A stretch of DNA of 64,000 nt from Owenweeksia hongkongensis DSM 17368 (GTDB lineage: Bacteria; Bacteroidota; Bacteroidia; Flavobacteriales; Schleiferiaceae). The number at the start of each line of letters is the position of its first letter. Positions within the stretch are counted from its first letter, which is position 1. Where the stretch lies: positions 930,001-994,000 of the forward strand of contig NC_016599.1 in NCBI RefSeq assembly GCF_000236705.1. Reading direction: 5' to 3'. Below are positions 23,805 to 32,309 of this stretch, in pieces. A program made the translations under genes and the position numbers. Under the pieces are notes generated by a model. The model was not told where the DNA came from. It saw only the letters and a program-made list of their open reading frames with translations, and did not search any database.

Positions 23805-24824
23805 TTAGCTACTTCTCACCACCATAAATCCGTGCTGATTCCCGTGATACGTATTGTAAATCAAAATGCAGTTTTCCTTTTCAGGTAAATGAGTATCTCC
23901 TCGCTTTACATCAATCAAAGGTGAAAGCTCATGGTCTTCAAAGGCTTTCATGGCCAGCCATAGGGCAAACGAAGTAGAAGTTGGGTATTCACCGCTAAGG
24001 TGCTTATAACGCCACACCGAAGCATCGGGCAAGCTGTTTTCTGCCTTTTCATAAAATGGTGTAATGCGCGAATCTCCGTTTTCTCCGCTAAGGATGGTAG
24101 TAATATTATATTCCGATTTCAGTTCCTCAATAATAGCGCTGAGATCTGTAAGATCCGTGGTATGAATAGTTCTTAAAGCTTCAAGCTTCATCACGGCATT
24201 TTCAGCGTTTTGACTCACCACAAACATGGCTGAACCTTCACCAGCAAGGCTTCCCTGGTTGTTGTTTTGGTAAAGCTCAGTATTGTCAAGCTCTTCTTTT
24301 TTATACCAACCGGCCAAAAAATCAATGTTGTAATTGTAGGTCGAAATCTCGTCCACTCCCCCTACCAGTATGCTTTGCTCTGGGTTTTCACCCGAAATAA
24401 AGCTGGCATCCAGTAAAGCATTTTCAAAAGCCAAACCACGATGCACGTGAGTAGTATTGTAGGCTGTGCTTTTGGCCATAAGGCCTATTTGCCCGGCAAT
24501 AGCGTTGGTGGTGCTTTGCACAAAATTGGTGGGTGTTAGGTTGCCCTCATCATATTCTATAATTTGATTCAAAAATCGAATGCAGTCTTCCATCCCGCCA
24601 TTGGCGGTACCTAATATTATTCCTCCAAGATTGTCCTCTTCAGCAATTAATGGCAATGCAGCTCCCACTCCTATTCTTACGGCCTTTCCCATTCTACGCA
24701 GTACTCCGCGTGGTATATTTTCATAAGAAGGCTCTTTGGCTACCAACCAATTGTCCACACTTTTTTGCAGTGTTTCCAGATTGCCTTGTGGCGAAATACA
24801 CGATGATTTATGGAAATACATCAT
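23805..24824 (-). CDS. ketosynthase-like chain-length-factor protein (no catalytic cysteine)
   Basis: A 339-residue thiolase-fold protein of the Ketoacyl-synt_2 type. Fold markers include GGIILGTANGGMEDC (about 67-81), TPTNFVQSTTNAIAGQIGL (about 98-116), and SILVGGVDEIS. At the nucleophile position the sequence reads NTTHVHRG (123-130), so His126 replaces the cysteine of the neighbouring ketosynthase (NTACSSS), and the HGTAT motif is absent. I infer a non-elongating subunit paired with that ketosynthase, as in aryl polyene and type II PKS systems. Its ATG overlaps the ketosynthase stop (ATGA), favouring equal synthesis. Confidence 0.75.
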   Translation of the reverse strand: MMYFHKSSCISPQGNLETLQKSVDNWLVAKEPSYENIPRGVLRRMGKAVRIGVGAALPLIAEEDNLGGIILGTANGGMEDCIRFLNQIIEYDEGNLTPTNFVQSTTNAIAGQIGLMAKSTAYNTTHVHRGLAFENALLDASFISGENPEQSILVGGVDEISTYNYNIDFLAGWYKKEELDNTELYQNNNQGSLAGEGSAMFVVSQNAENAVMKLEALRTIHTTDLTDLSAIIEELKSEYNITTILSGENGDSRITPFYEKAENSLPDASVWRYKHLSGEYPTSTSFALWLAMKAFEDHELSPLIDVKRGDTHLPEKENCILIYNTYHGNQHGFMVVRSS

Positions 24825-26008
24825 ACAGCCGAGAAAATTAGTGAACTACAATTTCCGCCAAATCCAAATGAATTGCTCATCACATGCTTCACTTCCTGTT
24901 GCTCATATTTCCTTTGTGGAATAAGCCCACATTCGGGAATACTTTCTTCAAAATTCAAGTTTGGATAAACCTCTTGATTGGCTATAGCCAAAATACTGTA
25001 AACCGCTTCTACTGCTCCTGCCGCTCCCAGCGTGTGCCCTGTAAAGGCTTTGGTGCTACTAAATGTGGGTACGTTTTTAAATAAACGCTTCATGGCATTG
25101 CTCTCCGTAGAGTCATTGTTTTCGGTAGCTGTACCATGAGCATTTATATAGGAAATCTGTTCAGTCTTCAAGTTAGCTTTGCGCAAAGCCTTCTCCATAG
25201 AGTTATAAGGCCCCACTCCTTCTTCAGAAAGCGAAGAAGCATGAAAAGCATCATTTCTATTTCCATAACCTGAAAGACGAGCGTACACTTTTTTGTCACC
25301 TGCATTCTCGGCTTTCTCCAAAACCAAATATGCTGCTCCTTCGCCTAAATTCAAACCTTTTCGACCTTTATCAAACGGGCGGCAAAGCTCTGGTGATAGA
25401 ATGAAAAGTGCATTAAAACCATTGATGGTAAACTTGGCCAAACTATCCACTCCCCCAACAATTACGCGGTCAGCCATTCCATTTTCAATAAGCCGAGCTC
25501 CATACATAATAGAGTTTGCTGAGGAAGAACATGCCGTGTTTATGGTATTCATATGTCCTTTCATGCCAAAACGCTCCTGTAAATACATGGTAGACGACCC
25601 GGCATCATAAGTGGAAATGTAAGCCGATGCACCTTCTTTACTATTCGCATCTTTGTACATAGAATCGGTGTAGCACATACCTCCCACGGTATTAGCACTG
25701 ACCAAAGCTGTTCGCTGTGATTGTAAATTTTCGAATGATAAGTTGCTATCCGCAACAGCTTCATTAAAGGCATGAAGGGATAGTAATGAAGTCCGAATTA
25801 CTGAAGCTTCTTTAGCTTTTAGCTGATTTTTCAACCAATCATCGCTGTGCTTAATTTCGCCATAGTAGCGGGTTTTAGCGTATACCGTTTCAAAGTTCTC
25901 AAGATGAGACAATCCACTTTTACCGGCTATTAAAGCCGAACGGTTGGCTTGAGCAGAATCGCCCAAAGCCGTAATCACGCCAATACCTGTTACTACAATA
26001 TCACTCAA
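24821..26008 (-). CDS. beta-ketoacyl-[acyl-carrier-protein] synthase (FabF/KS-alpha type)
   Basis: This 395-residue elongating condensing enzyme has the full triad: Cys160 in NTACSSS, His291 in HGTATENND and His325 in GHTLGAAG, plus the C-terminal SFGFGGNCSSL. It should condense malonyl-ACP units onto a growing chain carried by the ACP encoded just upstream. The start is a TTG at 26008, 2 bp after the ACP stop; no ATG is available before residue 111 and the frame begins exactly at the family N-terminus (DIVVTGIGVITALG). It is paired with the chain-length-factor-like gene. Confidence 0.9.
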   Translation of the reverse strand: MSDIVVTGIGVITALGDSAQANRSALIAGKSGLSHLENFETVYAKTRYYGEIKHSDDWLKNQLKAKEASVIRTSLLSLHAFNEAVADSNLSFENLQSQRTALVSANTVGGMCYTDSMYKDANSKEGASAYISTYDAGSSTMYLQERFGMKGHMNTINTACSSSANSIMYGARLIENGMADRVIVGGVDSLAKFTINGFNALFILSPELCRPFDKGRKGLNLGEGAAYLVLEKAENAGDKKVYARLSGYGNRNDAFHASSLSEEGVGPYNSMEKALRKANLKTEQISYINAHGTATENNDSTESNAMKRLFKNVPTFSSTKAFTGHTLGAAGAVEAVYSILAIANQEVYPNLNFEESIPECGLIPQRKYEQQEVKHVMSNSFGFGGNCSSLIFSAV

Positions 26009-26010
26009 TG

Positions 26011-30904: not shown

Positions 30905-31811
30905 TCTTCCCGTTTAGTTCAATACTTTGAAAGTATCTTCTCTTACTATTACGTTTTTTGTGTGTGAATGGCCTAATTAATAACATATCTAATAGAACCA
31001 CAAAGGGTGAAGCTACAAATAATGCTATTGCTAAATAATATTTAAAGACAACCAACCAAGGGTCTCGGTTCTTCTTTTTGCCAATAAAATTAGCCCAAAT
31101 TGAAAACAAACGACCTGCCTTGCTTTCAATAAACATTATGTCAGGCTTCACTTCTACTCCACCATTATCTATAACCTCTTGTTGATAATCGTTCCAATCA
31201 CCTGACTCTATATGGCTTTGTGCCAAATGCCCAAACTTTGATGCACTGGAAATATCCTTTTCAGAAACACCTGGTTTTGGAAATATACCCCATAATCGCT
31301 TCTTCTTTCCATACAATTGCCAATACACAATACTCACTGCGCTTGTCCAATTATGATGGCGATCAGCAAAAGCTACATTCCCTACCAAATTGGCCGAAGC
31401 ATCCTTCAGTAAAACCTTTATTTTTTCCTGTGAATTGAGCCACATATTGCGAGAGCCAATAACCGTAATTACTGGCGTACCTTTCATCACGGCTTTTACT
31501 TTTGGATGCCTGAGCATCGAGGTTGCCGGAACGCTGGGCGACAGAAACCAGGGCTGATAACCAAAAATCACCAAATCATACTCGGAACGCTTAAAACTAA
31601 AGTCCTCCAATTCCACTGTTTCTCCTAGGGCAGACATAGGCATAGCTCTGAAAAAATCCTTTCCACTCCAGGGGAATTCAAAAGCCATTTTTGGAGAGAT
31701 ATTTACAAGCTCAAGATTATAATCTGCTTGCAAAGGTTTACAAAATTCATCTATTATACGCCCAAGCTGACCCGTTTGGGAATAATAAATGACGAGTACA
31801 TTTTTGGTCAT
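30897..31811 (-). CDS. darA: dialkylresorcinol condensing/aromatizing enzyme DarA
   Basis: The 304-residue protein has an N-terminal flavodoxin-like region (VLVIYYSQTGQLGRIIDEF, about 5-23, then DLVIFGYQPWFLSPS and TVIGSRNMWLNSQ), consistent with FMN binding, and a C-terminal hydrophobic helix pair (about 250-285) before a basic tail. DarA works with DarB in dialkylresorcinol formation and is thought to aromatise the cyclohexanedione intermediate; a flavin-like fold suits an oxidation. Its membrane segment would place it at the inner membrane where the lipidic product partitions. Confidence 0.8.
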   Translation of the reverse strand: MTKNVLVIYYSQTGQLGRIIDEFCKPLQADYNLELVNISPKMAFEFPWSGKDFFRAMPMSALGETVELEDFSFKRSEYDLVIFGYQPWFLSPSVPATSMLRHPKVKAVMKGTPVITVIGSRNMWLNSQEKIKVLLKDASANLVGNVAFADRHHNWTSAVSIVYWQLYGKKKRLWGIFPKPGVSEKDISSASKFGHLAQSHIESGDWNDYQQEVIDNGGVEVKPDIMFIESKAGRLFSIWANFIGKKKNRDPWLVVFKYYLAIALFVASPFVVLLDMLLIRPFTHKKRNSKRRYFQSIELNGKND

Positions 31812-31817
31812 TAGTTG

Positions 31818-32309
31818 TTAATCAAGGTCTTCCGAGTTTAGAGCTTTCGAGGTTTTCGAATAGGCCAAAATAGCATTTTTCAACTCTTGTGAAAGTCCAT
31901 TGTACGATTCCCTAATTTTAGATGCATCAGCTTCTATATTATCGCTATAGCCCAAAATTCTTGGAGCATTCTCTTGAATTAAAAGTCTGAAGAAAAGGTA
32001 CTCTGAATTTTCGGGCTCTTTAGAAATGGCGTTTTCTAATAATGTATGACCTTCTTTAAAGGTAGATAGTTTATCTCCAGGACCACTTTGAAAAGCAGCA
32101 AACTTCATTAACAAAACCCCTTTGCTAGCTCTTTCTCTATTATTGTCAGGTTCCCCAATTTTTTCCAATAATAAAGCTAAACCTTCCTCGCTTTCACCAG
32201 AAAGTTGCTCATACAAATCACCTAATTCAACAGCATTTTGACACCAGGCAGTATTGGAGTTTAAAAACGCAAAAACGCTTACTAGCAAGACATATAACCA
32301 ATTTTTCAT
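31818..32309 (-). CDS. exported helical protein, first gene of the dar operon
   Basis: The 163-residue protein has a signal peptide (MKNWLYVLLVSVFAFLNSNT, cleavage after about AWCQ) and a helical, TPR-like body (EGHTLLENAISKEPENSEYL). It should be periplasmic. No family recognised. It lies 6 bp upstream of darA and so probably leads the operon; a role in handling the exported pigment-like lipid is conjecture. Confidence 0.55.
   Translation of the reverse strand: MKNWLYVLLVSVFAFLNSNTAWCQNAVELGDLYEQLSGESEEGLALLLEKIGEPDNNRERASKGVLLMKFAAFQSGPGDKLSTFKEGHTLLENAISKEPENSEYLFFRLLIQENAPRILGYSDNIEADASKIRESYNGLSQELKNAILAYSKTSKALNSEDLD

Follow-up and report, generated by a model that had tools for sequence, protein, structure and literature searches.

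Is a compact dialkylresorcinol operon that stands apart from any polyene gene cluster a pathway in its own right, or one half of a larger one? The question is raised by a 64,000-nucleotide stretch of the Owenweeksia hongkongensis DSM 17368 chromosome (NC_016599.1, positions 930,001 to 994,000; hereafter the window), in which dialkylresorcinol (dar) genes occupy positions 23805-32309. A preliminary description made from the sequence had proposed either part of a split flexirubin cluster, flexirubins being aryl-polyene esters of dialkylresorcinols, or a simpler resorcinol-lipid pathway. Our analyses support the former: the sole FlxA-type locus elsewhere carries polyene genes, with three proteins over the cut-offs of flexirubin models. 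Very probably, then, the dar operon is the dialkylresorcinol part of a flexirubin pathway whose genes sit at two separate loci on the same chromosome.

The polyene half (flx locus) was found at C1:1,307,299-1,330,831 through a genome search for aromatic amino acid lyases, and the distance from darB to flxA is 354,440 bases. The three flexirubin proteins over cut-off are the tyrosine ammonia-lyase FlxA (gene at 1314205; NF053541, 817.8 bits, cut-off 700), the reductase FlxB (NF053542, 406.5 bits, cut-off 340) and the coenzyme A (CoA) ligase FlxY (NF053551, 544.6 bits, cut-off 520). The first part of the locus encodes a halogenase-like flavin adenine dinucleotide (FAD) enzyme, a carotenoid-isomerase-like FAD enzyme, a 1269-aa (amino acid) fusion, FlxA, FlxB and several ketosynthases (KS). 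Further genes encode an LpxL-like acyltransferase, two dehydratase-like proteins, a thioesterase, an acyl carrier protein (ACP) and a pair of KS and chain-length factor (CLF), and also a ketoreductase (KR), a deacetylase, LolA, a glycosyltransferase, an exporter, FlxY and an AAT-family protein; the dehydratase (DH), thioesterase and acyltransferase were assigned by general family scores below equivalog cut-offs. As the preliminary description had said, no reductase, DH, tyrosine ammonia-lyase or acyltransferase genes occur among or beside the dar genes (list of open reading frames (ORFs) for 18000-38000, read by eye); their counterparts lie 354 kb away. The genome has a single DarB and a single FlxA over threshold, and with no second DarB over the cut-off, no complete second dar or flexirubin cluster was found. 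Aromatic amino acid lyases occur in two places, one of them of flexirubin type: only the gene at 1314205 matched the FlxA query at 1e-100, and the lyase at C1:918812 was rejected as the flexirubin lyase.

Two flx-locus proteins deserve separate mention. The FAD enzyme at C1:1307299-1308534 (L016:4299-5534) has the halogenase CmlS as its best model (169.7 against a cut-off of 900), and because chlorinated flexirubins exist, the Owenweeksia pigment may be chlorinated. The 1269-aa protein (L016:7091-10900) combines an MMPL/RND-type exporter, a 1-acylglycerol-phosphate-type acyltransferase and a methyltransferase-like domain, and has a 47% match in a congener (G178).

The dar operon itself comprises ten tightly packed genes on the minus strand, a 163-aa gene followed by darA-B-D-E-F-I-C-J-K. 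The dar letters follow Azoarcus naming; NCBI calls DarD DarG and DarE DarH. Together with one downstream ORF, the genes are as follows:

31818..32309, minus strand: 163-aa protein, first operon gene; N-terminal hydrophobic stretch, signal-like by eye
30897..31811, minus strand: darA, presumed flavodoxin-like aromatase, 304 aa, named from its position before darB and its homologues
29762..30904, minus strand: darB, StlD/DarB-type ketosynthase-cyclase, 380 aa (NF053539, 638.9 bits, cut-off 550)
29351..29758, minus strand: darD, NCBI "flexirubin biosynthesis protein DarG", 135 aa (NF053545, 196.9 bits, cut-off 170)
28345..29361, minus strand: darE, NCBI "BtrH-related acyltransferase DarH", 338 aa (NF053550, 465.2 bits, cut-off 300)
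27604..28344, minus strand: darF, ABC transporter ATPase, 246 aa (PF00005, 1.2e-32)
26313..27602, minus strand: darI, ABC-2 type permease, 429 aa (PF12698, 8.2e-29; also PF01061)
26011..26274, minus strand: darC, acyl carrier protein (PF00550, 4.8e-8; DSIDSLEL motif)
24821..26008, minus strand: darJ, ketosynthase with Cys-His-His motifs and a TTG start (PF00109/PF02801)
23805..24824, minus strand: darK, chain-length-factor-like KS partner with the active-site Cys replaced (PF13723, 3.3e-11); its end closes the operon
23433..23792, minus strand: 119-aa ORF after darK, no Pfam match

The compact, one-strand arrangement described earlier was borne out, with junctions between an 11-base overlap and a 38-base gap (darC start taken as ATG 26274; the mechanical ORF call begins at 26400). 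All genes named then are present, and the ATPase gene darF, the 135-aa darD and the 163-aa gene, left unnamed there, complete the list. DarB matches the solved structure of StlD (5gk0) at E 7e-107 and has the CCSG, HMSS and NLSS/GNVG motifs. For DarA, neither Pfam (E 0.001) nor NCBIfam (E 0.01) gave a match; Flavodoxin_4 appears at E 0.031, below that model's cut-off. The best darF model, TIGR01188 (DrrA), scores 240.4 bits, under its cut-off of 312.45, and the 163-aa protein matched nothing in Pfam at E 1 or in NCBIfam at 0.01.

We compared the operon with other darB loci, taking the best 80 of at least 575. DarA homologues lie beside darB in 76 of the 80, DarE is present in 77, and the downstream order of whichever dar genes are present is kept in all 80, trivially so where few are present. 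Where a locus extends at least 1.7 kb upstream of darB (74 loci), a homologue of the 163-aa gene precedes darA in 53. The 119-aa ORF has no match at E 1e-6 in the 80 loci and probably lies outside the conserved operon. A promoter and terminator scan gave 26 promoter-like sites (21.3 in shuffles) and 11 terminator-like sites (8.0 in shuffles), no clear margin in either case; at 23377-23412 the plus strand has one long stem followed by a T-run, and no tRNA was found within the window.

Could the operon be broken or silent, and hence without a product? The strain's colour has been attributed in print to a carotenoid. However, none of the ten reading frames is interrupted, DarB, DarC, DarE and DarJ retain their catalytic motifs, and a near relative (L047, a contig of a metagenome-assembled genome (MAG)) keeps the same operon beside the same kdsB neighbours, with DarB 93% identical and the same genes at 82-98% protein identity (63% for the 163-aa gene). 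A product-less operon is therefore highly improbable.

A close described counterpart is the dar cluster of Azoarcus sp. BH72 (azo0283-0293; PMC3949708, cited, like other papers below, from the sections available), with the order darA-B-D-E(BtrH)-F(ATPase)-...-I(permease)-C(ACP)-J(KS)-K. The Owenweeksia order A-B-D-E-F-I-C-J-K matches it, without the two extra Azoarcus genes, darG and darH, between F and I. In BH72, the dar and arc loci are also unlinked, and the pigment is a polyene-resorcinol ester; its polyene starter differs in coming via chorismatase rather than tyrosine ammonia-lyase, with no KOH colour shift (PMC3949708). Thus, the ACP, KS pair and exporter that the preliminary description regarded as the operon's own are present as anatomy but are usual dar-cluster content. 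Reichenbachiella agariperforans (L059) has the same operon order as Owenweeksia, and one flexirubin-positive Reichenbachiella strain lists "arylpolyene" and "resorcinol" as separate antiSMASH regions (PMC10752948). In Chitinophaga pinensis, with FlxA, FlxB, FlxY, DarA and DarB types, the polyene (Cpin_1853-1877) and resorcinol (Cpin_6850-6851) genes are likewise far apart (PMC3992019); unlike in Owenweeksia, darA is on the other strand in a MAG titled C. pinensis (L077). Flavobacterium johnsoniae has the same enzyme types in a 37-kb region (Fjoh_1078-1102), and its darB mutant is flexirubin-negative (PMC3992019). It differs in having one contiguous cluster, whereas the Owenweeksia dar and flx genes are not in one cluster.

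The ACP-KS-CLF triplet occurs at both the dar and flx loci. DarJ scores 332 bits with NF006618, under the cut-off of 407, and has the TACSS, NAHGT and GHTLGA motifs; its best solved match is FabF (2.7e-63), with 6qsp_A at 1.9e-53 and 9s5h_B at 8e-61. DarK has HVHRG at the position of the KS active-site Cys, and at E 0.01 it matches just two solved chains, 6qsp_B and 9s5h_C, the partners of the DarJ-matched chains. By sequence motifs, DarJ/DarK are an active-type KS and a Cys-less partner, as in aryl polyene KS-CLF pairs; we take structure 6qsp to be ApeO/ApeC. A quick tree of 62 KS separates, at a branch with support 100, the 37 KS of dar contexts from 24 flx-context KS (including row L107, of context "?", counted as flx; the outgroup branch is very long and the root unreliable). 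An exception is genome G344, absent from this tree, where the KS beside darI matches the flx KS best. A darJ was seen in 32 of the 62 named loci with at least 6.5 kb downstream, all among the 54 loci without a dehydratase gene inserted after darB (32/54) versus none of the eight with it; these eight are of F. johnsoniae-like form. A KS/CLF pair unique to this dar operon is ruled out by the flx-locus triplet and by the presence of darJ in those 32 loci.

DarD may be discussed briefly here. Its predicted model (pLDDT 83.6) has a C-terminal helical part that is weakly like a Cro/C1-type helix-turn-helix (HTH; best E 0.038). The fold search gave no match at E 0.001, the weak likenesses including the HTH-like domain of the enzyme HppE, and Pfam HTH_26 appears at 0.0013, under its cut-off. 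DarD could be a regulator or an adaptor.

If the two loci act together, the step that joins their products is of particular interest, and DarE is a candidate enzyme for it. DarE consists of BtrH_N (PF14399, 8.4e-51) plus DUF4872. Across a 73-row alignment, conservation of C13, H12, H123, H127 and D143 is at least 97%, with C13, H127 and D143 as its putative papain-like Cys/His/Asp set. No solved structure matches DarE by sequence at E 1. Its predicted model (pLDDT 90.9) matches AziU2-U3 (1.3e-9), CtaG (1.8e-8) and CcbD (1.2e-7), and also a C39-like peptidase (9e-4). PDB titles list C11A, H128A and D144N variants and a PHBA complex for CtaG, and a carrier-protein complex and C19S for CcbD; the H-to-D spacing of 16 in DarE equals that of H128/D144 in CtaG, as named in these titles. 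CtaG and CcbD are carrier-protein-dependent acyltransferases, and the acyl donor of CtaG is carrier-bound. The papain-like protein BtrH acts as an ACP:aminoglycoside acyltransferase (PMC10318531). A search of two flx-only genomes for DarE found none. The NCBI model already names this family acyltransferase; the additions made here are the evidence from predicted structure and the proposal of this particular step.

Based on these assignments, we propose the following pathway. Acyl chains from fatty acid metabolism, possibly readied on DarC by DarJ/DarK, would serve DarB as substrates for condensation and cyclisation, and aromatisation by DarA would then give a 2,5-dialkylresorcinol. For the polyene half, FlxA would deaminate tyrosine and FlxY would activate the product, and KS/KR/DH extension on the ACP would yield an aryl-polyene acid. 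DarE, as a papain-like transferase, would then move the polyene acyl group from its carrier protein and esterify the resorcinol, and DarF/DarI together with the flx exporter and LolA-type proteins would carry the product to the outer membrane. The DarA/DarB and FlxA/FlxY chemistry has been demonstrated in Chitinophaga (PMC3992019); we infer the DarE, DarC/J/K and transport steps.

An alternative is that the end product is a free dialkylresorcinol lipid or signal and that the polyene locus works separately. Stand-alone dar operons do exist: among 50 named loci with some 10 kb of sequence flanking darB on each side, 26 have no more than one flx-type gene (23 show at least three). Dialkylresorcinols have been discussed as signals for Dyadobacter (PMC9606717), and the congener G178 has a polyene locus and no dar gene found, which makes a resorcinol-free polyene product plausible there. 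In Owenweeksia, however, the genome also has a complete polyene locus, and a putative acyl-group transferase, DarE, sits inside the operon. DarB with FlxA is also the usual combination in the class (67 of 75 DarB genomes), and seven of the other eight carry a fused DarB-like protein. A stand-alone resorcinol-lipid system was rejected once the polyene locus had been found; the simpler pathway of the preliminary description is not needed, and a free end product is quite improbable.

How common is such a split? Within an order set of 296 genomes (DarB at E 1e-60, lyase at E 1e-100), DarB was found in 58, the lyase in 59 and both in 57. Both lie within 40 kb of each other in 54 of the 57, the exceptions being Owenweeksia (354 kb), G134 (646 kb) and G222 (68 kb). 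A class set of 396 Bacteroidia genomes, which overlaps the order set, was searched for DarB at E 1e-100: 75 genomes had DarB and 72 the FlxA-type lyase, with 67 having both, eight only DarB and five only the lyase. The two are within 40 kb in 24 of these 67, farther apart on one contig in two (Owenweeksia, and G624 at 812 kb) and on different contigs in 41, which in draft genomes need not mean far apart. The dar/flx split is rare within the host's order and common outside it. Of 39 listed genomes, 16 have dar clusters, nine of them inside or beside a polyene cluster (PMC3949708). Separate dar and flx loci are already published for C. pinensis, and the split as such is not new.

These searches also returned a second DarB-like family, a StlD/DarB-type ketosynthase (below curated cut-offs) with a C-terminal Haem_oxygenas_2 (iron-containing redox enzyme) domain. 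Two loci were read, L187:7419-9269 (G133) and L185:7955-9808 (G306); in both, the gene is followed by a DUF6999-type gene, Pfam-named in L187 only. Similar open frames of 616-635 aa occur in G025, G317:C8, G324, G463, G499, G578, G614 and G634, and the fused form is that found in seven of the eight class genomes with DarB and without FlxA. In a flx-positive genome, DarB lies in two overlapping pieces with an internal TGA (G088:C1:3280889-3282020), and the dar pathway there may be broken.

Several points weigh against the assignment of the operon to a flexirubin pathway. The role of DarA is presumed from its position and homologues. Escherichia coli given only DarA and DarB yields the resorcinol (PMC3992019), so that DarC/J/K are no strict requirement there. 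For the ester step, a different enzyme has been proposed in print, the ligase-like FlxW (PMC3992019). The Owenweeksia genome paper describes orange colonies, its abstract names beta-carotene for the family, and "flexirub" does not occur in its available text (PMC3570807). A phytoene synthase-type gene lies at C1:3976701-3977429, and a carotenoid may share responsibility for the orange colour. Our literature search, which did not cover the original species description, found no flexirubin test of O. hongkongensis. Flexirubin production by Owenweeksia is thus a genome-based prediction.

Did the two halves share one history? Among 22 taxa with both, a tree of five dar proteins places the window with one Chitinophagaceae and seven Mucilaginibacter loci (support 100/99), while two flx KS proteins place the window and G178 with Crocinitomicaceae-like Flavobacteriales loci (99/98). 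The clade-test groups were picked after the trees had been viewed, which makes the p-values flattering: for dar, holding the window with five Crocinitomicaceae-like Flavobacteriales loci was rejected (p-AU 0.0017); for flx, holding it with the Chitinophagaceae/Mucilaginibacter group was rejected (p-AU 0.0005); and two further tests also reject (p 1.2e-5 and 4e-76, the latter partly owing to other rows). Broader trees, quick and with many gaps, covered 41 taxa with both halves (42 rows with G178). The flx tree joins the window and G178 to G379 and G344 (99), and in the dar tree the window falls among 17 rows that include Cyclobacteriaceae, Chitinophagaceae and Sphingobacteriaceae (99), with G379 and G344 elsewhere. 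Forcing these two together with the window in the dar tree cost 350 log units.

The congener G178 (a draft of 60 contigs, 98% complete) has matches to 20 of 20 flx-locus queries on contig C51. Its contig C20 holds a collinear kdsB region without dar and without the neighbouring PfpI-type gene, and no DarB, DarE, DarD or darJ-type KS was found in this genome (best KS 44%). The dar genes are likely absent, although a single assembly gap could conceal the entire operon. The DarD family had no match in six flx-only genomes tested. Because the trees of the two halves disagree and the congener has the polyene locus with no dar found, separate inheritance is suggested, perhaps via transfer of the dar operon, to which we assign no direction.

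The two halves might instead have been vertically inherited together and separated merely by rearrangement. The operon G+C of 39-42% equals that of the genome (40.2%; PMC3570807), with no sign of recent import, and in three of the 57 order genomes that have both, the distance exceeds 40 kb. Cluster breakage is seen in G134, where the dar part keeps flx genes and the lyase end is 646 kb off. However, the conflict between the dar and flx trees is strongly supported, and in Owenweeksia the dar half carries a darC-J-K triplet of its own, with no flx genes left behind. Rearrangement alone is possible but somewhat doubtful. We tentatively favour, short of calling it probable, an assembly from two modules: a resident polyene locus common to the congener, and a dar operon related to those of Chitinophagaceae, Sphingobacteriaceae and Cyclobacteriaceae. 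DarE, travelling with dar, would join the products, and gain of dar alone would convert an aryl-polyene maker into a flexirubin maker.

Altogether, the compact operon is settled as one half of a whole pathway, and flexirubin is predicted for a strain for which we found no published test. DarE provides a concrete candidate for the ester step, for which the available sections of PMC3992019 propose only a ligase-like enzyme. This is a known kind of pathway, ordinary in kind and useful in detail. Flexirubin is in use as a chemotaxonomic marker, and if modular assembly is true, this marker can arise in a lineage through one operon. In that case, flx-only genomes would be natural tests of the role of the polyene without the resorcinol.

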